Below are positions 4,912 to 28,487 of a stretch of DNA of 64,000 nucleotides, in pieces. The position numbers were made by a program, and so were the translations under genes. The stretch comes from Glycomyces lechevalierae (lineage in GTDB: Bacteria > Actinomycetota > Actinomycetes > Mycobacteriales > Micromonosporaceae). Below the pieces are notes generated by a model, which worked only from the letters and a program-made list of their open reading frames with translations, made no database searches and had not been told where the DNA came from. The first letter of the stretch is position 1; each line of letters starts with the position of its first letter. The DNA is taken from contig NZ_JAPZVQ010000006.1 in NCBI RefSeq assembly GCF_027622945.1, positions 49,497 to 113,496 on the forward strand. Direction: 5' to 3'.

Positions 4912-5826
4912 ATGATTCTCGTGACCGGTGTGACCGGCGGCCTCGGCGGCCTCATCCTCAACGGCCTCAAAGGCATCGACGACATCGAGGTGGTGCCGGG
5001 AACCCGCAAGGGGGACGGCTCGGCCGCCCGCCGGATCGACTTCGACGACCCCGCCTCCCTCGCCGAGGGCTTCGCAGGCGTCGACGTCCTGGTCTTCATC
5101 TCCGCCGGGTACGCCGAGGACGACATCGTCCTGGCCCGCCACGGCGCAGTGGCCGACGCCGCCAGGGCCGCCGGTGTGAAGCACGTGATCTACACGAGCC
5201 TCGCCTCCTCCGGCGAACGCATGACCATCGCCCTGCCGCACCGCTGGACCGAAGACCGACTCGCCAACGGCCCCTTCGAGGTGACGATCCTCCGCAACGG
5301 GCTTTACACCGAGATCCCCCTCGGCCTGGCCCTCACCGGAGCGGCGATGGCCGCCGAGACCGGGATCTTCGCGGCCCCGTTCGGCGACGGCCGAGTCTCG
5401 GTCGTCGCCAAGGAAGACCTTGCCGACATCGCCGTCCGAGTCGCAGTCGAAACCGACCGCGACCTGGCCGCAGGCAACCAGAGTCGCCACGCGGGCCGGA
5501 CCTACGAACTCGAGGGCCCCACCCCCATCGGCGGGAACGAGATCGCCGAGGTGCTGACCGAATCACTCGGCCGCCCTGTCACTTACCAATCGATCTCGCT
5601 CTCGGACCTCCGCCAGGGCCTGGAAGGCAGCGGCATGCTGCCCTACCAGATCACCCACACCCTCTCGATCTTCTCGAACGTGAAGGCCGGCTGGACCGAA
5701 GCGAGGCACAGCGACCTTGAGGCCCTGCTGCCGAACGTCCCCCGACCCGTCCACGACAGCATCGTGGCCGCCGTGAAGGCGGGTGGGTTCGAGTCCCAGT
5801 CGCTCAGTTCCAGTGGGGAAAGCTGA
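4912..5826 (+). CDS. NmrA/QorB-like NAD(P)-binding oxidoreductase
   Basis: Atypical short-chain dehydrogenase of 304 residues. The Rossmann motif is at the very N-terminus (MILVTGVTGGLGGLILNGLK), followed by FDDPASLAEGFAGVDVLVFI and GVKHVIYTSLASS, as in NAD(P)H:quinone oxidoreductase QorB and NmrA-like proteins. The C-terminal half carries LEGPTPIGGNEIAEVLTESL, typical for this group. Related proteins either reduce quinones or act as redox sensors; which applies here is unknown. Divergent from the HxlR gene, which probably controls it. The stop codon lies inside a terminator-like hairpin. Confidence 0.85.
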   Translation: MILVTGVTGGLGGLILNGLKGIDDIEVVPGTRKGDGSAARRIDFDDPASLAEGFAGVDVLVFISAGYAEDDIVLARHGAVADAARAAGVKHVIYTSLASSGERMTIALPHRWTEDRLANGPFEVTILRNGLYTEIPLGLALTGAAMAAETGIFAAPFGDGRVSVVAKEDLADIAVRVAVETDRDLAAGNQSRHAGRTYELEGPTPIGGNEIAEVLTESLGRPVTYQSISLSDLRQGLEGSGMLPYQITHTLSIFSNVKAGWTEARHSDLEALLPNVPRPVHDSIVAAVKAGGFESQSLSSSGES

Positions 5827-5831
5827 GCGAC
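5799..5831 (+). terminator. Hairpin overlapping the NmrA-like stop codon
   Basis: GTCGCTCAG and CTGAGCGAC form a perfect 9-bp stem; inside it TTCC and GGAA can pair further. The TGA at 5824-5826 is in the right arm. CGGCCTGTTTGTT follows, a weak T-rich tail. Confidence 0.6.
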
Positions 5832-6416
5832 CGGCCTGTTTGTTCGCGGGCGCGGGTGTCGTCGCCGAGTCGGGTCCTCTAATGCCCGATCTGGCGTTGC
5901 TGCTCGCGCTCGCTGTCTTGCCAAGGTGTGCCTCGTTCAGAGCACTGCCGCGGTCGAGGTGATCCCGACCAACGATCTCCCACCCAGCACGGCCCCCTGG
6001 GGCCGTGGTCCGCTGTGGATCCCGATAGCACGCGGGGACTGAGACCAGTGCTCCGTCAAGGCGCTGATCTCGGAATCGGTCCGGTTTGGGTTTCGGCCAG
6101 AGGCTTGGCGTAGTCTGCTTGCACCTACTCGCCACCTGTACGTTTTCCGTATCCCTGTGCGTACATCAATCATCCCTCGCACCACACCCCACTGTCATCA
6201 CTCACAGGGTGAGAAGACATTCATGTTCAGCCCGACCCACCTGCACCCCAAGGGAAACGGCGCCGCCCGCCGCGCCCCGACCAAACCCGCCACCCGCCAA
6301 GCAACCCCACCCCGAATCCACCTCTCCGTCGCCGCCCGCCTGAACCGCAAGCCGATCCCGACGACAAAGTCGCTCATGCACGCGCAACCCCCGAGTCGAG
6401 CGGCTCAGGCTCAGGT
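5832..6416. other. 585-base region without a convincing gene
   Basis: No reading frame here has convincing codon bias. A frame from ATG 6223 (MFSPTHLHPKGNGAARRAPT) has GAGAAG seven bases upstream but runs antisense into the exonuclease gene; it is Pro/Arg-rich and I do not support it as a gene. ACGGCCCC and GGGGCCGT at 5989-6006 form a tight hairpin, and GTACG/CGTAC repeats lie near 6137-6166. The stretch may be intergenic or a decayed gene. Confidence 0.4.
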
Positions 6417-7034
6417 CTATGCCTGCTCGATTGAGGCGGCACCGGACCGGCGTGCGAGTTCGATGAGCAGGTTCGCGTACCCGAGAGTGTCATCGAGGGC
6501 TTTATGCGTGTGCTCGATGTCGCCGAACCATTCGGAGGGCAGGTTGGCCGGGGTCATCTCCGCGACCGGGCGGCCGGTGAGCGCCGCCGCGTAGCTCCGG
6601 ATGCACAGGCCCGGTCCGTCGAAGATCCGGTCCTCCTCGTAGGGGCCCTGGATGAGGCCGTAGCGGGTGAACCGGCGCAGGTAGTAGTCGATCCACAAGC
6701 CGTCGAAGGCGAGCGGAGAAGCGGCGAACATGCACTTCCCCGGCAGGGCTTGCACCCACGCGGCGTATGAGGACATGACATCGTGAACCGGTTGCGGGTC
6801 CTCAGTGGCCGCGGCCCACACGTCCGGGATGGTCTGGAACCACGCCAGGGTCTTCTCGTTGGGGGCGGCTCCTGGCAGGGGTTCGAGCACCGCCTCGAAC
6901 CGGCCGTGCTCGGTGCCGTCGAGCGAGACGGCCACCGAAGCGAACGACCGCATGGAGTTGGCTCCCGGCCAAGGGCCGTCGACCTCGATGTCCGTCACGA
7001 CGTAGATCCACTCGTCGGAAAGCGCCTTCTTCAT
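6417..7034 (-). CDS. DEDDh 3'-5' exonuclease-like protein
   Basis: Predicted exonuclease of the DnaQ/RNase T fold, 205 residues. The first motif reads VVTDIEVDGPWPG, giving Asp15 and Glu17; the last motif HTHKALDDTLGYANLL gives the H-x4-D pair of DEDDh enzymes; FDGLWIDYYL provides the central aspartate. Together these are the metal-binding residues of active enzymes. Substrate (RNA or DNA) cannot be told. The start at 7034 (MKKALSDEW) is chosen because AGGA sits eight bases before it; two upstream in-frame starts exist up to 7061. Convergent with no close partner; the cellulase terminator lies upstream of it. Confidence 0.8.
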   Translation of the reverse strand: MKKALSDEWIYVVTDIEVDGPWPGANSMRSFASVAVSLDGTEHGRFEAVLEPLPGAAPNEKTLAWFQTIPDVWAAATEDPQPVHDVMSSYAAWVQALPGKCMFAASPLAFDGLWIDYYLRRFTRYGLIQGPYEEDRIFDGPGLCIRSYAAALTGRPVAEMTPANLPSEWFGDIEHTHKALDDTLGYANLLIELARRSGAASIEQA

Positions 7035-7119
7035 GCACATCATCCTGCCCGAGCGCGGCATCGACGAGTCGGCCAGGGCGGCTGCGCCTGCTCAGGACCC
7101 GATGAGGGACTACACGACA

Positions 7120-7155
7120 ACGGCCGGGGCGGCGAGTGCGCGCCGCCCCGGCCGT
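7120..7155 (-). terminator. Terminator of the GH5_4 gene
   Basis: A perfect 15-bp stem (7120-7134 with 7141-7155) with a 6-base loop lies just after the stop of the glucanase. GC-rich, without a T run. Confidence 0.7.
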
Positions 7156-8858: not shown

Positions 8859-9081
8859 AGGAGATTCTCCTTTCGGAGCACCGGGGACGGTCCGCGTCGA
8901 CGCGGCGGTGCGATGGGCGATACCGATCGCGGCGGGACGGGCGGCCCCGCAGCGATGTATGGACAGATTCCTATATCCCATATCGTGGTGTCAATGTTTG
9001 GTCGCCCGATTCAACTAATTACTCCCCGAACCGTTATCTGTCGGCTGGCAGGCAAGCCCGAAGCGGGCCTTTGAAGACGCG

Positions 9082-9114
9082 ACGGGAGGACACCTCCCAG
9101 AGGTGCCCTCCCGT
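9082..9114 (-). terminator. Terminator of the ABC exporter operon
   Basis: ACGGGAGG/CCTCCCGT plus inner CACCTC/GAGGTG form a 14-bp stem with one A-C mismatch and a CCA loop, 33 bases after the ABC-2 permease stop. A second small hairpin GCCCG-AAG-CGGGC follows at about 9057-9069. Confidence 0.65.
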
Positions 9115-9146
9115 ATGCGTATCGCCGCTCTCCGGCGACCGACCGG

Positions 9147-9947
9147 CTAGACGTCGGACCGCTTGATGCGCCAGGCGGCCGCGCCGAGCGTGGCGGCGAT
9201 GTAGCCGCTGAACACGGTCAGCCCGGCCAGCGGTGAGAGCGCGTCCTCCTGCTGCGTCACCGCCGTGAACGCGTCCCCCGCCTCGGACGGCAGGTACTGC
9301 ACGACATCGCTCCAGCTCTCCGGCACCAGCAGCGCGGCCACCATGGCCAGCAGGAACATGACGCCGAACAGCGTCGTGATCGCGCCGGGCGTGGAGCGCA
9401 TGAGCGCGCCGAGCCCGACCCCGAGCAGCCCCGACCCGGTGAGCAGGCCCGCGGTGCCGACGACCGCGCGGGCCACGCCCGGGTCGGACCAGGAAGCGCC
9501 GCCGTCGATGAGCGACTGGCCCACGGTGAAGACGACCGCCGAAGCGGCGAGTGCCACGACGAACACCACGGCGGCGAACACCGCGGCCTTGGCCCACAGC
9601 ACCGGCAGCCGCTTCGGCACGGCCGCCATCGAGGAGCGGATCATCCCCGTGCTGTACTCGCCGGCCGTGAACAGGACGCCCAGCGCCCCGAACGCCAGCA
9701 CCGCGAAGTTCGTGCCGGTGAAGCTCGCGCTGATCGGATCGGTCGGCTCGTTGCCGGGAGGGCCGCCCGGGTCGCTGCCGTCCCCGTACAGGGACGAGGC
9801 GAGGAGCCCGAACCCGATGAGCAGCAGCACGGCGATGCCCAGGGTGATGAGGGTCGAGCGCACCGACCAGAACTTGATCCATTCGCTCTTCAGGACCCGC
9901 GGCAGGCTGACCCGCTTGCGGGGGAGGGCGGCGATTGCGGTGGTCAT
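9147..9947 (-). CDS. ABC-2 type exporter permease
   Basis: Membrane subunit of an ABC exporter, 266 residues with about six helices. N-terminal cytosolic RVLKSEWIKFWSVRSTLITL is the signature of this ABC-2 subfamily (one permease paired with a CcmA-like ATPase, as in bacitracin/lantibiotic or drug exporters). It overlaps the upstream ATPase gene by four bases. The pair is divergent from a histidine kinase/LuxR regulator operon, an arrangement in which the two-component system often controls the exporter. Confidence 0.88.
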   Translation of the reverse strand: MTTAIAALPRKRVSLPRVLKSEWIKFWSVRSTLITLGIAVLLLIGFGLLASSLYGDGSDPGGPPGNEPTDPISASFTGTNFAVLAFGALGVLFTAGEYSTGMIRSSMAAVPKRLPVLWAKAAVFAAVVFVVALAASAVVFTVGQSLIDGGASWSDPGVARAVVGTAGLLTGSGLLGVGLGALMRSTPGAITTLFGVMFLLAMVAALLVPESWSDVVQYLPSEAGDAFTAVTQQEDALSPLAGLTVFSGYIAATLGAAAWRIKRSDV

Positions 9948-10864
9948 CGGGTTGCTCCGATCGTGGCGGACTGGTATTCGACGGCGTCCTTCGTGAGTTC
10001 CATGAACGCCTCCTCGAGGGACGGACGGATGACGGTGAGCTCGTGCACCGGGATGCCGGCGCCCGCGGCCCGGTCGCCGATCTCCTCGGCGGACAGGCCC
10101 GTGACCTCGAACAGGCCGCGGTCGATGCTGAGCACCGTGGTCCCGGGACCGGAGATGAGGTCGTGCAGGGCGTTCGCGTGCGGCGAGCGCACCCGGACGC
10201 TCTCGTTGGACGCGCTCTCGATGAATCCGCTCACCGACACGTCGGCGATCAGGCGGCCCTTGCCGATCACGATCAGGTGCTCGGCGGTCAGCGCCATCTC
10301 GCTCATCAAGTGCGAAGAGACGAACACGGTGCGTCCTTGTGCGGCGAGATCACGCATCAGGTTGCGGATCCAGAGGACACCCTCGGGGTCGAGGCCGTTC
10401 GTCGGCTCGTCGAGGATGACCACCTCGGGGTCGCCGAGGAGCGCCGAGGCGATCCCGAGGCGCTGGCCCATGCCCAGGGAGAACCCGCCGACCCGCTTGC
10501 GGGCCACCTCGTGCAGGCCGACGATGTCGATGACCTCGTCGACGCGGGACTTCGGGATGCCGGTGGTGGCGGCGAGGGCGAGCAGGTGGTGGTAGGCGGT
10601 GCGACCGGTGTGGACGGCCTTCGCGTCGAGCAGCGCGCCGGCCTGGAACATCGGGTCGGGGTGCTCGGCGTACGGGCGGCCGTTCACCGTGGCCGTGCCG
10701 GAGGTCGGCCGGTCGAGGCCGAGGATCATGCGCATGGTCGTCGACTTGCCCGAGCCGTTCGGTCCGAGGAAGCCGGTCACGATGCCCGGCTTGACGGTGA
10801 AGGCGAGGCCGTCGACGGCGGTCTTGTCGCCGTAGCGCTTGGTGAGGTCGTGTACTTCGATCAT
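9944..10864 (-). CDS. ABC transporter ATP-binding protein (CcmA/drug-export type)
   Basis: ATPase of the exporter, 306 residues, starting MIEVHDLTKRYGDKTAVDGL. Walker A is GPNGSGKST, the signature FSLGMGQRLGIA, and Walker B VVILDEPTNGLDP. A C-terminal extension of about 85 residues (VRSPHANALHDLISGPG onward) is typical of the drug/antibiotic ATPases of this family. Start is ATG at 10864; a much longer frame upstream is antisense to the kinase gene and is not real. Translationally coupled to the permease. Confidence 0.92.
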   Translation of the reverse strand: MIEVHDLTKRYGDKTAVDGLAFTVKPGIVTGFLGPNGSGKSTTMRMILGLDRPTSGTATVNGRPYAEHPDPMFQAGALLDAKAVHTGRTAYHHLLALAATTGIPKSRVDEVIDIVGLHEVARKRVGGFSLGMGQRLGIASALLGDPEVVILDEPTNGLDPEGVLWIRNLMRDLAAQGRTVFVSSHLMSEMALTAEHLIVIGKGRLIADVSVSGFIESASNESVRVRSPHANALHDLISGPGTTVLSIDRGLFEVTGLSAEEIGDRAAGAGIPVHELTVIRPSLEEAFMELTKDAVEYQSATIGATR

Positions 10865-18257: not shown

Positions 18258-19640
18258 GTGACCGCACCGATCCCGGGACTGAGCCTGTCCCCCTTGGAGA
18301 TCCTGGCCGTCCTGGGCGCGCTCGCCGTCGTCCTCGCCCGGTGGCTCGCGCACCGCAAAGCCGTCCTGCTCACCGGCGCCTCGGTCGTAGCGGCCGCCGG
18401 GGCCGCGCTCGCGGCGACCGGCCTGCGCTGGCAGCTGTACTCGGTCCTCCTGCTCACTGCGATCGTCCTGGTCGTCGCGTTGGCGAGACGCGGTCGCGGC
18501 CGGATGCGCCGCCGGTTCGCGGTCCCCGGCACGGCCGCCTGCCTGCTCGTCCTCGCCGCCACGCCGATCGCGGCCTGGGCGCTGCCCGTCCCGGTCTATC
18601 CCGAGCCGACCGGCGCGCACGACGTCGGCAGCGCGGTCTTCCAATGGACCGACGAGACCCGCCCCGAGCCGTTCACGGACGACCCCGACGACCACCGCAC
18701 CATCGTCGTCCAGCTCTGGTACCCCGCCGAGGCAGGACCGGACGCCGAACGAGCGATCGCAGGCAGGTCGACTCTCGAAGAGTCCCAAGCGGTCACGCAG
18801 GCCACGGCCGACCTCTTCGGCATCCCCGGGTTCCTCCTCGAGGACGCCGCCGCGGCGCCCTCGCACGCGGTCTTCGACGCCCCGGCCGCGCCCGGCCGCT
18901 TCCCGGTCATCGTCTTCTCCCCGGGCCTCAACGCGACCCGCACCGCCAACACCGCGCTCGCCGAGGAATGGGTCAGCCGCGGCTACGCCGTCGCCACCGT
19001 CGACCACCCCTACGACGCCGCGCTCACCTACGTCGACGGCGCACCCGCCTACTCCCGCAACACGCTCAACACGACCGACGAAGCCGAGATCGCCGCGATC
19101 AACCGCGCCAACATCGAGACCCGCAGCGCCGACCTGAGTTTCACCCTCACCCAGCTCGACACCGTCGCGCTCGCCCCGCACCTCGACACCGGCCGCGCCG
19201 CCGTCGCGGGCCACTCGCGCGGAGCCGTCGCCGCCCTCGCGGCCCTGGCCGCCGACCCCCGCTTCGACGCGGCCGTCCACATCGACGGCGGCCTCGAACC
19301 GACCCTCATGCCCGGGCCCTTCACGCAACCGGTCCTCTCGATCACCAGCCCGATCTCGGCCGCCGAGAACCCCGACTACCTGCCCACCCTCGACGCCGCA
19401 CTCGCCCTGGGCCCCAAGGACACCTACCGGATCGAACTCGAAGGCGCCGGGCACTTCTCCTTCACCGACGCCGCCCTCTCGTTCCCGCCCGTCCCCTCGA
19501 TCCTCGGCACCGTCGGCCGCACGGAAGGCCTCCAGCGCACCGCCGACGCCACCGCCGTCTTCCTCGACGCGGTCCTGCGCGGGGAGCCGACGGACCTTCC
19601 CGGGCAGCTCGCTCAGTTCGGCACATTGACTTCAATTTGA
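18258..19640 (+). CDS. Membrane-anchored alpha/beta hydrolase, PAF-acetylhydrolase-like
   Basis: Serine hydrolase of 460 residues. Three or four N-terminal helices (residues 10-110) anchor a catalytic domain of the platelet-activating-factor acetylhydrolase type II fold. WYPAEAGPDAE and FSPGLNATRTANTALAEEW precede the nucleophile elbow AGHSRGA (Ser320); the acid lies in HIDGGLEP and the catalytic His in GAGHFSF. This fold covers ester and polyester hydrolases; the substrate cannot be told. The start GTG at 18258 lies seven bases after CACACT, possibly a leaderless -10. The gene's last codons overlap the promoter of the next operon. Confidence 0.85.
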   Translation: MTAPIPGLSLSPLEILAVLGALAVVLARWLAHRKAVLLTGASVVAAAGAALAATGLRWQLYSVLLLTAIVLVVALARRGRGRMRRRFAVPGTAACLLVLAATPIAAWALPVPVYPEPTGAHDVGSAVFQWTDETRPEPFTDDPDDHRTIVVQLWYPAEAGPDAERAIAGRSTLEESQAVTQATADLFGIPGFLLEDAAAAPSHAVFDAPAAPGRFPVIVFSPGLNATRTANTALAEEWVSRGYAVATVDHPYDAALTYVDGAPAYSRNTLNTTDEAEIAAINRANIETRSADLSFTLTQLDTVALAPHLDTGRAAVAGHSRGAVAALAALAADPRFDAAVHIDGGLEPTLMPGPFTQPVLSITSPISAAENPDYLPTLDAALALGPKDTYRIELEGAGHFSFTDAALSFPPVPSILGTVGRTEGLQRTADATAVFLDAVLRGEPTDLPGQLAQFGTLTSI

Positions 19641-19654
19641 TTGAAACCTATACT
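19626..19654 (+). promoter_or_regulatory. Strong sigma70-type promoter of the adenylation/TmpA-like/hydratase operon
   Basis: TTGACT (19626-19631) and TATACT (19649-19654) are separated by exactly 17 bases, close to consensus and AT-rich against the surroundings. The -35 overlaps the end of the preceding hydrolase gene. Predicted transcript start is near 19661, leaving a leader of about 85 bases. Confidence 0.75.
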
Positions 19655-19656
19655 TT

Positions 19657-19677
19657 CTCACGTGTGAGCGCTACCAC
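19657..19677. promoter_or_regulatory. Putative operator at the transcription start
   Basis: CTCAC-GT-GTGAG (19657-19668) is a 12-base dyad and continues into GTGAGCGCTACCAC with a central AGCGCT, which resembles sites of LacI/GntR-type repressors. Its position just after the -10 suits repression. The cognate regulator is not adjacent. Confidence 0.5.
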
Positions 19678-19744
19678 AAGGAGCGCGCGCACGATTCGAA
19701 AGGGTTGGGATTCAAGCAAAAAGCAGCGAACTGGCGGGTGACCT

Positions 19745-21346
19745 ATGCCTGAAGTCGACTACACACAGCGATCAATCAACTACGTCAAACGAAAGGGCGG
19801 CACGCCGCTCCTCGAGAAACGCGGGACTCGATCCGCACTGGACGAACGGGACCGACACCTGTTCCGCCGGTTCGGATGGGGTCCCGCTCGCGTCGTGCCC
19901 CGCGTCGCGATCCACGAGACGATCGAAAAGCACGCGGCCGCAACGCCGTCCGCGACCGCCGCCGAACACGGCGGCGACCGCATCACCTACGGCGAACTCG
20001 AACGCGACGCGAATCGGCTCGCCGCGCGCCTCATCGCGCACGGCGTCCGCCCCGGCGGCCGCGTCGCGCTCGTCGTGCGCCGCGGCATCCCGATGCTCAT
20101 CGGCATCCTCGCGATCCTCAAGACCGGCGCCGCATACGTACCCCAGGACGCCAAGATGATCCGGAACCCGGCACTCCGGCACATCCTGCGCACCACCGGA
20201 AGCACGATCGTCCTCACGCAATCCGATGCGCCCGTGGAACTCCCGCCCGGCATCACCGGCATCGACATCGACCAGGTCCGCGCCGAACGGACCGACGCCC
20301 CCGCGCCCCGCATCCCCGCCGACCCCGAGCGGGCCTGCTACATCCTGTTCACCTCCGGCACCACGGGCACGCCGAACGGGGTCGCGGTCACGCACGCGAA
20401 CCTCGCGAACCTCCTGCTCACCGAGCCGGGCGACCTCGGCATCCGGCCGGGCACCACCGTCGGGCAGATCCTCAACATCGCGTTCGACATGGCCGCGTGG
20501 GAGATCCTGGGCTGCCTCGCGCACGGCGGCACCCTCCTCATCCGCGGCGACGACATCGCCGCGACCGCCCGCCGGGCCGAGGTCCTGATAGCGACGCCCA
20601 CGATCCTCTCCCGGATCGATCCCGAGTCCTGCCAACGCATCCGGACCGTGGCCGTCGCCGGCGAACCGTGCCCGCGCGCGCTCGCCGACCGGTGGGCCGC
20701 ACGATGCGCCTTCTACAACGGATGCGGCCCCACGGAGACCACCATCGTGAACACGATGCAGCGGCACCACCCCGGCGCCGCGCGGCTCACCATCGGCCGG
20801 CCCACCCCCAACAACACCGTCTACATCCTCGACGAGCACCGCAATCCGTGCCCGATCGGCGAGGTCGGCGAGATGTGGGCGGGCGGCGACGGCGTCTCCG
20901 CCGGGTACCTCGCCAACCCCGAGCTGAACGCCGAGCGGTACTCGCCCGACCCGTTCCTCGGCGGCGGCCGCACCATGTTCCGCACCCGCGACCTGGGCCG
21001 CTGGACCGCGGACGGCGAGCTCGAGCACTTCGGGCGCACCGACGACCAGGTCAAGATCCGCGGCTTCCGGGTCGAACTCGACGCGGTATCGGCAGTGCTG
21101 GAAGGCGTTCCGGGCTGCGTCCGGGCCGCCACGGTCAAGCTCGACGACCGCACACTGGCGTCGTTCGTCCAGCCCGCCACGGTCGACCCGGCGCTCGCGC
21201 GCAAGGTCGTGGCCGAGGCGCTGCCGTACTACTGCGTCCCGGAAGCGGTCCACCTCCTGGAAGCGCTCCCCCTCACCGATCGCGGCAAGATCGACAAACC
21301 GCGGCTGCTCCGGCTCGCCCGCCTCGGACGGGAGGCCACGTCATGA
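19745..21346 (+). CDS. Stand-alone NRPS-type adenylation domain protein
   Basis: Adenylate-forming enzyme of 533 residues that should activate an amino or other carboxylic acid with ATP. Core motifs are present: A3 FTSGTTGTPNG (about 202-212), A4 FDMAAWE, A5 NGCGPTET (325-332), A7 MFRTRDLGRW, A8 GRTDDQVKIRGFRVELD from 430, and the A10 lysine Lys515 in DRGKIDK. The protein stops after A10, so no carrier, condensation or reductase domain is attached. An N-terminal extension of about 60 residues (YTQRSINYVKRKGGTPLLEK, then RFGWGP) is not part of ordinary A domains. It overlaps the membrane flavoprotein gene by four bases. This pairing matches fungal TmpB, in which an NRPS-type A domain is joined to a TmpA-like oxidoreductase. 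Confidence 0.88.
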   Translation: MPEVDYTQRSINYVKRKGGTPLLEKRGTRSALDERDRHLFRRFGWGPARVVPRVAIHETIEKHAAATPSATAAEHGGDRITYGELERDANRLAARLIAHGVRPGGRVALVVRRGIPMLIGILAILKTGAAYVPQDAKMIRNPALRHILRTTGSTIVLTQSDAPVELPPGITGIDIDQVRAERTDAPAPRIPADPERACYILFTSGTTGTPNGVAVTHANLANLLLTEPGDLGIRPGTTVGQILNIAFDMAAWEILGCLAHGGTLLIRGDDIAATARRAEVLIATPTILSRIDPESCQRIRTVAVAGEPCPRALADRWAARCAFYNGCGPTETTIVNTMQRHHPGAARLTIGRPTPNNTVYILDEHRNPCPIGEVGEMWAGGDGVSAGYLANPELNAERYSPDPFLGGGRTMFRTRDLGRWTADGELEHFGRTDDQVKIRGFRVELDAVSAVLEGVPGCVRAATVKLDDRTLASFVQPATVDPALARKVVAEALPYYCVPEAVHLLEALPLTDRGKIDKPRLLRLARLGREATS

Positions 21347-22650
21347 CCGAGCTCAGGCACGACACGCAGCTCAAGAACGACCGGATCGACGACGTCGAAC
21401 TCCCGCCGCTCCTCCCGCTCGTACGCCGCGCCTTCAAGCACCCGGCGCTCATGCACTTCAACCGCCTGGCCGCCTCGGTCATCGCGGTCAACCTCGTCGT
21501 GCTGATCGCGGCGGTGCCGGAGGTCCCGGCCGAGTTCGCCTCGCGCGCAGCGCTGTTGAACTTCGCCCTCGCGATCCTCATCCGCCGCCAGCGCCTGATC
21601 AACCTGCTGTTCCGGATGGCGACCGCTGCGCCGGTCACCTGGCCGCTGAAGGTGCGGTGGACGCTGGCGAAGGTCTACCACTTCGGCGGCCTGCACGTGG
21701 GCGGCGCGCTCGCGGGCTCGCTGTGGTTCGGCGCGTTCGTCGCACTGGCCACAGTGGAAGGCGCGCCGGTGGACGTGCTCGTCCTGGCGTACGCGCTGGT
21801 GGCGCTGTTCGCGGCGATGCTGGCGACCACGATCCCGAAGCTGCGGGCCAAGAACCACAACCGGTTCGAGCTCGTGCACCGCTTCGGCGGCTGGACCTCG
21901 CTGGTCCTTTTGTGGGCCATGACGATCACGCAGGTCGGCCACAGCGGCGAGCCGCTGTTCTCCACACTGGAGTTCTGGGTGCTCGCGGCGGTCACGGTCG
22001 CGGTCATCGCGCCGTGGACGCGCCTGCGCCGCGTCCCGGTCGACATCAAGCGGCCCTCGTCGCATGTCGCGATCGCGCGGTTCACGCACGGCCGCAAGCC
22101 CTTCGCCGGTTCGTCGACGGCGATCAGCCGCTCGCCGCTGCGCGAATGGCACTCGTTCGCGAACATCCCCTCGCCCACCGAGCACGGCTTCCGGCTCACG
22201 ATCTCGCGCGCCGGCGACTGGACCGGGCGGTTCATCGACGACATGCCGTCGCACGTGTGGGTCAAGGGCATCACCGTGGCGGGCGTGGCGAACATCGAGG
22301 TGCTGTTCAAGAAGGTGGTGTACGTGGCGACCGGGAGCGGCATCGGCCCGTGCCTGCCGCACCTGCTGGCGCAGGAGGTCCCGGCGCTGCTGGTGTGGTC
22401 GACGCGCGCGCCGCGCGTCACGTTCGGCGACGAACTGGTGGACGAGATCCTTGCAGTGCAACCGGAAGCGCGGATATGGGACACCGCGGAGCACGGCAAG
22501 CCGGACATGATCCGCCTCGCGGTCGCCGCCTACCGCGACTTCGGCGCCGAGGCGGTCATCTGCATCTCCAACAAGAAACTGACCTGGCAGGTCGTCCACG
22601 GGCTCGAACGCCGGGGCATCCCCGCCTACGGCGCGATCTGGGACTCCTGA
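21343..22650 (+). CDS. TmpA-like membrane flavoprotein oxidoreductase
   Basis: Integral membrane protein of 435 residues. About six hydrophobic segments lie in residues 45-235 (LAASVIAVNLVVLIAAVP; VLVLAYALVALFAAMLATTI; FWVLAAVTVAVIAPW). The C-terminal half is ferredoxin-reductase-like: RSPLREWHSFANI takes the place of the flavin-binding R-x-Y/F-S motif region and YVATGSGIGPCLPHLLA (about 327-343) is the NAD(P)-binding G-x-G-x-x-P loop, ending with LVWSTRAP and a C-terminal AYGAIWDS. Paired membrane histidines of haem-binding ferric reductases are not obvious. The family is known from Aspergillus nidulans TmpA, needed for a conidiation signal. ATG at 21343 overlaps the adenylation gene stop. 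Confidence 0.75.
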   Translation: MTELRHDTQLKNDRIDDVELPPLLPLVRRAFKHPALMHFNRLAASVIAVNLVVLIAAVPEVPAEFASRAALLNFALAILIRRQRLINLLFRMATAAPVTWPLKVRWTLAKVYHFGGLHVGGALAGSLWFGAFVALATVEGAPVDVLVLAYALVALFAAMLATTIPKLRAKNHNRFELVHRFGGWTSLVLLWAMTITQVGHSGEPLFSTLEFWVLAAVTVAVIAPWTRLRRVPVDIKRPSSHVAIARFTHGRKPFAGSSTAISRSPLREWHSFANIPSPTEHGFRLTISRAGDWTGRFIDDMPSHVWVKGITVAGVANIEVLFKKVVYVATGSGIGPCLPHLLAQEVPALLVWSTRAPRVTFGDELVDEILAVQPEARIWDTAEHGKPDMIRLAVAAYRDFGAEAVICISNKKLTWQVVHGLERRGIPAYGAIWDS

Positions 22651-22662
22651 GAGAGGAAGACG

Positions 22663-23427
22663 ATGCGACTCAAGATCGAACGTGAAGGCCGGGTCGTGCG
22701 GGTGCGCCTGCACCGGCCCGAGGTCCTGAACGCCCTCGACGCCGCGCTCATGACCGAGCTGGTCGAGGCGCTGACCCCGCTCGACGCCGACCCCGGCGTG
22801 GGCTGCTTCGTGATCACCGGCTCCGAGCGGGCGTTCGCGGCCGGCGCGGACATCAAGGAGATGTCCGGGAAGTCGGCGGCGGACATGATCGCGGAGGACT
22901 ACTTCGCGGGCTGGGAGGCCTTCGCGGCCTTGCGGACGCCGAAGCTCGCGGCCGTCTCGGGCTACGCGCTCGGCGGCGGCTGCGAGCTGGCGATGATGTG
23001 CGACATGATCATCGCGGGGGACGACGCGAAGTTCGGGCAGCCGGAGATCACGCTCGGCGTCATCCCGGGCATCGGCGGCACGCAGCGGCTCACCCGGTTG
23101 GTGGGCAAGGCGAAGGCGATGGACCTCATCCTCACCGGGCGTCTCATCGACGCGGAGGAGGCCGAGCGCATCGGGCTCGTCTCGCGGGTCGTCCCGGCCG
23201 AAACCCTTGCGGCCGAGGCGAACGCGATCGCCGAGCAGATCGCCGGCTACGGCAAGCTCGCGGTGATGGCGGCGCGCGACTGCGTCGACCGCGCCTTGGA
23301 GACCGGGCTCGCCGACGGGATCCGCTACGAGCGCAGGGCGTTCCACGCGCTCTTCGCCACCGCAGATCAGCAGGAGGGCATGCGCGCCTTCAAGGAGAAG
23401 CGGGCGCCGGAGTTCACCGGGCGATGA
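22663..23427 (+). CDS. Enoyl-CoA hydratase/isomerase family protein
   Basis: Crotonase-fold enzyme of 254 residues. The oxyanion loop [11 protein letters not shown] and GGGCELAM are present; catalytic glutamates Glu108 and Glu128 (in [20 protein letters not shown]) are 20 residues apart, as Glu144 and Glu164 in rat enoyl-CoA hydratase, so true hydratase activity is likely. It begins 13 bases after the flavoprotein gene with RBS GAGAGGAAG. Third gene of the operon; it suggests that the product of the adenylation/oxidoreductase pair passes through an acyl-CoA, or that the operon supplies an unsaturated acyl substrate. Confidence 0.9.
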
Positions 23428-26969: not shown

Positions 26970-27063
26970 CCACCTGAAGTTCCCCTCCGGACCCCGGGGC
27001 AAACCGGGCGGTCGGCGGCCCTTGACGGCGCGCCAATACATTGACAAACTCCGATGCAACCAC

Positions 27064-27078
27064 TGGGAGCGCTTCCCA
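27064..27078. promoter_or_regulatory. CebR/CelR-like operator with one extra base
   Basis: TGGGAGCGCTTCCCA differs from the established cellulose operator TGGGAGCGCTCCCA (CebR of Streptomyces, CelR of Thermobifida) only by one inserted T. TTGACA at 27041-27046 lies 17 bases upstream, so the site takes the place of the -10 region and would block transcription of the cellulase gene until cellobiose is present. Confidence 0.8.
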
Positions 27079-27104
27079 ATGTCCGGATCGATGAAAGGCA
27101 CACC

Positions 27105-28487
27105 ATGCGAGCAACCCGAAGGCGAAAGCTGACGGCGATCATCGGCGCGGCCGTCGCCGCGCTCAGCGCGGGCGCGATCACCGTGGCCGCGTCCCAGGGC
27201 GCGAACGCCGCGGCCGGCTGCGACGTCGGCTACGAAGTCGTCAGCGACTGGGGCTCGGGCTTCCAGGCGAACGTCAGCATCACCACCGACCAACGGATCG
27301 ACGGCTGGACCGTCGAATGGGACTTCACCAGCGCTGTCTCCGGCATCAGCGCCTGGAACGTCTCCAAGTCCTCCCTCAGCGGCAGGCACTTCACCGCCAC
27401 CGACGCCGGCTGGAACGGCCCCATCGGCGCCGGCCAGACCCGCGAGGTCTTCGGCTTCACGGCCGACGGCGACTCAGGCGACATCACGAACCTGAAGCTC
27501 AACGGCGTCGCGTGCGGCGAAGGCGGCGGCGAGCAGACCACCGGACCCGAACCCACCGACCCGGAGCCGACCGACCCCGCCCCCGCGGGCACCCCGGTCG
27601 AGGAGCACGGCAAGCTCCACGTCTGCGGCACGCAGATGTGCGACGAGTCCAATGCGCCCGTCCAGCTCAAGGGCGTCTCGAGCATGTGGCTGCACTGGCA
27701 GACCCAGCCCTACGCGCAGAACCGCTCCGCGCTGGAATGGATGCGCGACAACTGGGGCATCGACGTCTTCCGCGTCGCCATGGGGGTCGAGCCCGAAGGC
27801 GCCTACCTCTCCGACCCGGCACGCTGGAAGGCCGAAGTGGAGACCGTGATCGACAATGCGGCCGCCGCGGGGGTCTATGTGATCGTCGACTTCCACGCCC
27901 ATGCGGCCCACCAGCACACGTCCGAAGCGGTCGCGTTCTTCAGCGACCTCGCCGCCCGCTACGGGGATCTCCCGAACATCATCTGGGAGCCCTACAACGA
28001 GCCCGAGCAGGTGTCCTGGAGCGGCACCGTCAAGCCGTACCACCAAGCCGTCGTCGCGGCCATCCGCGCGGAGGACCCGGACAACATCATCGTCCTCGGC
28101 ACCCCGACCTGGTCCCAGGACGTCGACGTCGCCGCCGGCGACCCCGTCTCCGGCACCAACCTGATGTACACCCTCCACTTCTACTCCTGCACCCACCAGC
28201 AGTGGAACCGCGACAAGGCCGACGCCGCCATCGACGCCGGCCTGGCCCTCTTCGTCACCGAGTGGGGCGCGAGCGCCGCCGACGGCGGCCTCGACGGCCG
28301 CCTCTGCCTCGACGAGGCCCAGACCTGGATCGACTGGATGGCCGCCAACGGCATCTCCTGGACCGCTTGGAAACTCGACGTCGGCCCCGACTCCACCAAC
28401 CTCCTCGCCTCGGGCGCACCGCTGACCGGGGGCTGGACCAATTACCTCCACGGCCACGCGCCCTTCGTCATCGAGAACCTGCAGTAA
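27105..28487 (+). CDS. Secreted endoglucanase, CBM2-linker-GH5 (subfamily 2-like)
   Basis: Cellulase of 460 residues. An N-terminal signal peptide (MRATRRRKLTAIIGAAVAAL, cleavage near GANA) is followed by a CBM2 cellulose-binding domain (about 36-138: GCDVGYEVVSDWGSGFQANV to NGVACG, paired cysteines), a Pro/Thr linker (PEPTDPEPTDPAPAGTP) and a GH5 domain from about 160. Catalytic Glu299 is in PYNEPE and Glu386 in FVTEWG. The start ATG at 27105 has GAAAGG eight bases upstream. A cellulose-type operator precedes it, so induction by cellobiose is likely. The hairpin after the gene has a T run. Confidence 0.94.
   Translation: MRATRRRKLTAIIGAAVAALSAGAITVAASQGANAAAGCDVGYEVVSDWGSGFQANVSITTDQRIDGWTVEWDFTSAVSGISAWNVSKSSLSGRHFTATDAGWNGPIGAGQTREVFGFTADGDSGDITNLKLNGVACGEGGGEQTTGPEPTDPEPTDPAPAGTPVEEHGKLHVCGTQMCDESNAPVQLKGVSSMWLHWQTQPYAQNRSALEWMRDNWGIDVFRVAMGVEPEGAYLSDPARWKAEVETVIDNAAAAGVYVIVDFHAHAAHQHTSEAVAFFSDLAARYGDLPNIIWEPYNEPEQVSWSGTVKPYHQAVVAAIRAEDPDNIIVLGTPTWSQDVDVAAGDPVSGTNLMYTLHFYSCTHQQWNRDKADAAIDAGLALFVTEWGASAADGGLDGRLCLDEAQTWIDWMAANGISWTAWKLDVGPDSTNLLASGAPLTGGWTNYLHGHAPFVIENLQ

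Follow-up and report, generated by a model that had tools for sequence, protein, structure and literature searches.

The fungal protein TmpB (989 amino acids, aa) joins an adenylation (A) domain, with D238, W242, C307, G309, I315 and K495 given as key residues, to a part resembling TmpA; a gene for an enoyl-CoA hydratase (ECH) lies next to tmpB and is conserved in several Aspergilli (PMC4804170). The TmpL proteins (1025 and 994 aa) bind flavin and carry the NAD(P) motif GSGIGP, as does TmpA; loss of TmpL disturbs reactive oxygen levels, and proteins of this type were described in 2009 as confined to filamentous fungi (PMC2766074). TmpB affects fungal conidiation (PMC4804170), and TmpL affects redox balance and virulence (PMC2766074); the available sections of the two papers state no product for either protein. 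The fungal ChNPS12 clade has single-A-domain proteins from Hahella and Salinispora nested in it, and more bacterial sampling has been called for (PMC2823734). One stand-alone A domain, Sare0718 of Salinispora arenicola (pocket code DMWIAAAIVK), was studied by Xia et al. in 2012; it lies outside all ten predicted nonribosomal peptide synthetase (NRPS) clusters, activates L-Ala in vitro (Km 0.116 mM, kcat 12.6 per min; 20 amino acids tested), and has as neighbours sare0716 (ECH), sare0717 (hypothetical protein) and sare0719 (phosphopantetheinyl transferase, PPTase), the available text drawing no link from it to TmpB (PMC3360062). In the 64,000-nucleotide stretch of Glycomyces lechevalierae DNA analysed here (the window; contig NZ_JAPZVQ010000006.1, positions 49,497 to 113,496), three adjacent genes (the trio; Table 1) encode an NRPS-type A domain, a six-helix membrane flavoprotein and an ECH. 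They probably correspond to the fungal ChNPS12/TmpB/TmpL enzyme, which in bacteria is mostly split, and to its partner ECH, and the operon would make a redox-modified metabolite derived from an amino acid. No bacterial TmpB-like operon described as such was found in the open-access literature.

Conservation of the three genes and their natural fusions

The locus set was obtained by scanning a genome collection with the window flavoprotein and comprises the best 80 of 95 loci (five phyla; close relatives by design), with start codons set by script; from the window protein and these loci, 46 flavoprotein rows (alignment A1) and 41 A-domain rows (A2) were picked for diversity. A-domain sequence lies directly upstream of the flavoprotein gene in 79 of the 80 loci, and the A-domain stop and flavoprotein start share a four-base overlap in 47 (script-chosen starts). 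The L038 contig starts 117 bases ahead of the flavoprotein gene, so that the A domain cannot be judged, and the tree groups this locus with solo proteins; contig ends cut the A domain in L022, L025, L032, L042 and L054, and it is interrupted in L010 and L051. An ECH gene or fragment follows the flavoprotein directly, at no more than 415 bases, in 70/80 loci (including L051 and L058, which have fragments only); the ECH occupying this place in L019, L041, L059, L062, L063, L065, L071 and L075 is only 33–41% identical. The window ECH keeps both glutamates, E108 and E128, that we take to be catalytic, and they are present in 38/38 aligned ECHs. Distances between A domains correlated with those between flavoproteins (r 0.83, 41 loci), and ECH distances with each of these (0.67–0.70, 38 loci); none of 1000 permutations reached these values. 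Among the 46 genomes of the window's bacterial family that carry the flavoprotein, the A domain adjoins it in 39 and both partners in 37. The co-occurrence survey proposed in the first-pass annotation, made earlier from the letters of this DNA, thus found the genes conserved together. Chance co-location was rejected on these counts, and the three genes form a real, conserved system.

The distribution is patchy, the flavoprotein being found in 8/22 Glycomyces genomes, 46/354 genomes of the window's bacterial family and 3/396 drawn from the phylum (each count includes the window's own genome). The closest relatives of the window trio, among the best 80 of 95, are Glycomyces loci. The trio also occurs in Pseudomonas, Rhodobacterales, Bacteroidota, Bdellovibrionota and one Chloroflexota bin, and many of its carriers, Pseudomonas for example, do not sporulate. 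The first-pass annotation had proposed a bacterial split version of a TmpB-like system belonging to sporulating or filamentous actinomycetes. The restriction does not hold, and the system is more general than was assumed; since the trio occurs outside the actinomycetes, a sporulation signal of that group was rejected as its general role and is an unsupported idea. The TmpB-like system itself is favoured by the conserved set, the ECH neighbour of tmpB, the ChNPS12 nesting, the GSGIGP motif and natural fusions.

These fusions, in which A domain and flavoprotein share a single open frame with its own linker, occur in 3/80 loci: a Saprospiraceae bin (L019, 1018 aa), a Flavobacteriaceae bin (L039, 987 aa) and an uncultured Granulosicoccus (L049, 1045 aa). 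All three come from metagenome or uncultured assemblies, and any one taken singly might be an artefact of assembly; with three different linkers and two phyla, an artefact is unlikely. At 987–1045 aa they have the same order and layout as TmpB (989 aa) and TmpL (1025 and 994 aa). The key Asp, Trp, Gly, Ile and Lys of TmpB are all present in the bacterial A domains, with matching D–W (4 and 4), G–I (6 and 6) and I–K (180 and 180–181) spacings, and the TmpB Cys, which corresponds to PheA position 322, is also found in 5/41 of them (PMC4804170). Taken together, these comparisons strongly suggest that the trio belongs to the TmpB family.

It might be argued that a general A domain and a general ferredoxin-reductase-type protein were joined independently in fungi and in bacteria, the similarity of the flavoprotein half to the fungal proteins being one of architecture and motif and the flavoprotein having no curated-family match above cut-off or meaningful PDB sequence match. 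However, the same three-gene association, ECH included, is found in both kingdoms, the fusions are alike in order and size, the flavoproteins share GSGIGP (PMC4804170, PMC2766074), and bacterial single A domains nest in the ChNPS12 clade (PMC2823734). In addition, the flavoprotein profile matched only 3/396 phylum genomes, each with E below 1e-190, and the other genomes gave no match at 1e-3, indicating a profile insensitive to general ferredoxin reductases. Independent joining is considered quite improbable.

The adenylation domain and its relative Sare0718

The window A domain scores above the TIGR01733 cut-off and also matches PF00501; Pfam and NCBIfam gave no match in the protein to a carrier, condensation or reductase domain. 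Its ten-residue pocket code is DMWIAAGIVK, and the pattern D-M-W-[IV]-A-A-[GASC]-I-[VI]-K fits 41/41 rows from four phyla, a near-fixed code that suggests that the A domains of the whole set share one substrate. Nine of the ten pocket residues are identical in Sare0718, whose ECH and hypothetical-protein neighbours lie in the same order as in the window (PMC3360062). Sare0718 has 556 aa, the length of the A domain in L140, a locus of the window's bacterial family with the order PPTase, 556-aa A domain, flavoprotein, ECH; as both gene order and A-domain length match, we infer that sare0717 encodes a flavoprotein of the trio type. Sare0718 is very probably a member of the trio-type A domains, and very probably a CHARACTERISED relative, so that the earlier statement that no characterised bacterial case was known has to be amended (PMC3360062). 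The L140 protein was rejected as Sare0718 itself despite equal length and gene order (60.17 versus the published 60.29 kDa), and among 11 family loci with computed lengths and masses none matched Sare0718 exactly. Sare0718 differs from the window in its adjoining PPTase gene (PMC3360062); a similarity search of the window with the L140 gene found none. Among 104 loci searched, L134–L140, taken as Salinispora-like, are the sole group in which an L140-like PPTase lies no more than a few kb from the trio.

Such an A domain could also load a carrier encoded elsewhere, the flavoprotein and ECH then tailoring the carrier-bound residue as parts of an ordinary, scattered NRPS cassette. Its NRPS type would fit this arrangement, as would the PPTase genes near the trio in 7/104 loci and beside sare0718 (PMC3360062). 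Against it, a crude motif scan of the 80 loci found no carrier-like small open reading frame (ORF) within 5 kb, and neighbour clustering (only some rarer families were annotated) returned no further universal operon member, only the three trio genes being present in more than 7 of 32 taxonomic groups. Moreover, the fusions connect the A domain straight to the membrane part, and TmpB and TmpL are described without a carrier in the available sections of PMC4804170 and PMC2766074. Loading in trans is considered unlikely.

The membrane flavoprotein with and without partners

With no Pfam match above cut-off, no NCBIfam match and no meaningful PDB sequence match, the window flavoprotein was identified by its fold and motifs; among its relatives, 6/46 matched the ferric reductase domain weakly (best E 1.2e-4). 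The AlphaFold2 model (predicted local distance difference test, pLDDT, 90.6; predicted template modelling score, pTM, 0.87) has six membrane helices followed by a ferredoxin-reductase-like (FNR) half. The charges obey the positive-inside rule, with 6, 7, 3 and 5 Lys + Arg residues in the inner loops and 0, 0 and 0 in the outer loops, and both termini are predicted to be cytosolic; model and charges agree with the first-pass description of six helices and a ferredoxin-reductase-like NAD(P) half. The best full-length folds found with Foldseek were NADPH oxidases (NOX), for example SpNOX (8qt6, TM 0.62/0.66). A profile-profile comparison with ferric-reductase-domain proteins, made with a profile of 12 proteins from related genomes (out of 20 loci), covered helices 5 and 6 and the FNR half (E 3.5e-5, probability 72%). 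The NAD(P) motif GSGIGP, at residues 331–336, is invariant in 46/46 rows, as are R81, R105, K110, H113, H118, R168, H172, E176 and R180, all on the inner side of the predicted topology. The stretch nearest the fungal FAD motif RLHFD, itself hypothetical, is ARFDHG in the bacterial consensus, as picked by eye.

Six helices plus an FNR module is the predicted fold that the flavoprotein shares with NADPH oxidases and ferric reductases such as SpNOX. The two haems of NOX proteins are bound in helices 3 and 5 by His pairs with a spacing of 13–14 residues, and the ferric-reductase template of the profile comparison shows a 13-residue His spacing. The inner haem positions of the flavoprotein are occupied by H118 (46/46) and H179 (40/46). 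In contrast to the two bis-His sites of those enzymes, no conserved outer-haem His was found at residues 130–134 or 191–195, the maximum being 2/46 (residue 132) and 9/46 (residue 193), respectively. The invariant charged residues on the inner side, and the lack of a Pfam match above cut-off in the window protein, are further differences from SpNOX-type proteins. The Foldseek and ferric-reductase profile matches, and the effect of TmpL loss on reactive oxygen (PMC2766074), could nevertheless be taken to mean that the flavoprotein moves electrons across the membrane, serving superoxide production, iron or redox sensing, with the A domain producing a ligand unconnected with this activity. Given the outer-haem positions and the invariant polar residues on the cytosolic side, this is considered very improbable, and a transmembrane ferric reductase or oxidase role was rejected since the 46 rows have no conserved outer-haem pair. 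The same two features point instead to chemistry at the inner membrane face rather than electron transfer across the membrane.

The flavoprotein also occurs alone. Queried with a solo protein, 24 of 397 genomes of the order gave a match, which was weak in three; at 13 solo loci no common partner gene was shared, and neither an A domain nor an ECH was present in the fetched stretch. The flavoprotein can thus work without these partners, and the ECH, not being seen at solo loci, is probably tied to the chemistry of the A-domain branch. In the solo tree nothing was drawn from the places of L178, whose row was translated in the wrong frame, and L180, which is very divergent. In L146 (4309–8996, minus strand) a divergent solo flavoprotein lies between an ABC transporter pair and an alpha-oxoamine synthase-like pyridoxal phosphate enzyme (best NCBIfam match bioF, below cut-off), possibly a second pathway using the same type of flavoprotein. 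The L175 genome carries two divergently placed solo flavoprotein genes ~2 kb apart, at 5775–7133 (minus strand) and 8925–10445 (plus strand). Beyond the 3/396 genomes matched by the profile, distant relatives (31–32% identity over about 63% of the protein) are encoded on the cyanobacterial plasmids AP018292.1, AP018300.1 and AP018209.1; five plasmid-borne relatives were found in all, each annotated 'hypothetical protein', and the flavoprotein family thus reaches wider than the operon.

Proposed route, locus features and comparison with known systems

Several observations weigh against the trio being a counterpart of the fungal enzyme, or against parts of the chemistry proposed below. Homology of the flavoprotein half with TmpA and TmpB rests on architecture and motif, and whole-chain Foldseek agreement with SpNOX is only moderate (TM 0.60–0.66). 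In the model of the L019 fusion (53 rows) both parts fold well (pLDDT 88.5), but with a pTM of 0.59 there is no confident arrangement of the A domain and the membrane part, and a fixed arrangement was rejected. No ECH lies beside the A domain and flavoprotein in 10/80 loci (L010, L030, L038, L043, L068, L072, L074, L079, L080 and L081), all of which extend at least 1.7 kb further downstream. The flavoprotein is solo in 7/46 genomes of the window's family and at further loci, and K110 and H113 are often replaced in solo rows, being kept in 7/14 and 8/14, respectively (one row misread). The A3 motif of A domains normally reads TSG-TTG-x-PKG, with a lysine; the first-pass annotation, right about the missing carrier and reductase domains, had called this motif intact, and the lysine is in fact replaced by Asn (N211 in the window) in 41/41 aligned A domains. 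The PPTase genes near 7/104 trios could hint at a carrier. The Asp–Gly distance is 71 in TmpB and 80 in the bacterial A domains (PMC4804170). Finally, L-Ala activation was measured on Sare0718 and not on the window protein, and with 20 amino acids only (PMC3360062).

If the trio is nevertheless the counterpart of the fungal enzyme, as we consider probable, the A domain would activate a small amino acid, most likely L-alanine or a close analogue, to the aminoacyl-adenylate. As no carrier protein was seen in the operon, the activated group would be handed over as the adenylate or a CoA thioester to the charged cytosolic mouth of the membrane flavoprotein. There NAD(P)H would reduce the FAD of the flavoprotein, and the electrons would be spent on the activated substrate and not sent across the membrane, while the ECH would add (or eliminate) water on a CoA-bound intermediate; the order of these last two steps is a guess. 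The product, also a guess, may be a small, probably membrane-released metabolite derived from the amino acid. We infer all steps after amino-acid activation; L-Ala adenylation by a probable member (PMC3360062) and flavin binding by TmpL (PMC2766074) have been shown elsewhere. A tentative and rather doubtful extension is that fungi and several bacterial phyla share one carrier-free route, in which L-alanine activation, a haem-poor NOX-fold flavoprotein working at the inner membrane face and, last, an ECH lead to a small diffusible signal; the flavoprotein would then be a reductase of a new kind, with an adenylated or CoA-bound amino acid as its substrate. A bacterial operon with a soluble, separate A domain and a relative of known substrate brings the chemistry within reach of tests in easily handled bacterial hosts, and bacteria could serve to find what the fungal enzyme makes. 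If the homology is true, it corrects the 2009 view of TmpL-type proteins as restricted to filamentous fungi (PMC2766074).

Table 1. Features of the trio locus, in window coordinates
Feature	Position	Strand	Basis
Stand-alone NRPS-type A domain, 533 aa (P0001)	19745..21346	+	TIGR01733, PF00501, pocket mapping
Six-helix membrane flavoprotein, NOX/ferric-reductase fold, 435 aa (P0003)	21343..22650	+	AlphaFold2, Foldseek, motifs, charges
ECH, crotonase family, 254 aa (P0002)	22663..23427	+	Family matches, catalytic Glu E108 + E128
Sigma-70-type promoter TTGACT-17-TATACT, 10/12	19626..19654	+	Pattern scan; kept in 5/8 Glycomyces upstream regions
Imperfect palindrome TGTGAGCGCTACCACA, directly 3' of the -10 box	19663..19678	+	Kept in the same 5/8 Glycomyces regions as the promoter

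In the window the A-domain and flavoprotein genes overlap by ATGA, as first annotated together with the ORFs, and the flavoprotein stop and ECH start are separated by 12 bases rather than the 13 then given. The single strong promoter claimed at that time finds support: it is the sole sigma-70-like match in the 7.2 kb scanned (0.3 expected), and the -35 and -10 boxes and their spacing are identical in five of the eight aligned Glycomyces upstream regions (window counted among the five), L005, L006 and L007 being without both promoter and palindrome. The palindrome, TGTGAGCGCTACCACA, resembles what we take to be a LacI-family operator and is a possible operator; it had 1 genome match at no more than one mismatch and the reversed control likewise 1, a count that is not above the control and alone shows nothing. 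A NUDIX gene downstream is oriented towards the operon. No PADLOC match was obtained, and an anti-phage system was rejected. At window positions 27064–27078, immediately preceding the point where a secreted cellulase-like gene probably starts (ORF 27054–28487; function assigned by eye), lies TGGGAGCGCTTCCCA, which resembles the CebR operator of actinomycetes; the count of this pattern in the window was not above that in shuffled sequences. Elsewhere, six of the 32 groups have a response regulator and histidine kinase pair next to the trio, on its upstream or its downstream side depending on the group (L015, L026, L029, L033, L035, L036 and L043; checked with Pfam in L015, L033, L035, L036 and L043). 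A minus-strand DUF6502 and DUF5666 gene pair lies upstream of, and faces away from, alphaproteobacterial trios (L040, L045, L046, L048, L050, L058 and L069; Pfam checked in L048 only).

Compared with the fungal proteins, the bacterial set mostly keeps the A domain and flavoprotein as two genes, the window having the split form with adjoining, overlapping genes, and the membrane/flavin part of TmpL (residues 501–1025) is longer than the bacterial flavoprotein (PMC2766074). The bacterial solo loci, unlike fungal TmpA, have no common partner gene and no AfeA-like partner among annotated neighbours. Fungal TmpA is itself a solo flavoprotein, and the occurrence of the bacterial flavoprotein both alone and with an A domain parallels the fungal situation, in which TmpA stands alone and TmpB is fused. 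TmpB and TmpL resemble the bacterial set in their carrier-free A domain, six helices and FAD/NAD(P) half with GSGIGP (PMC4804170, PMC2766074), and an ECH gene is the neighbour of tmpB in fungi as it is of the A domain and flavoprotein in bacteria (PMC4804170).

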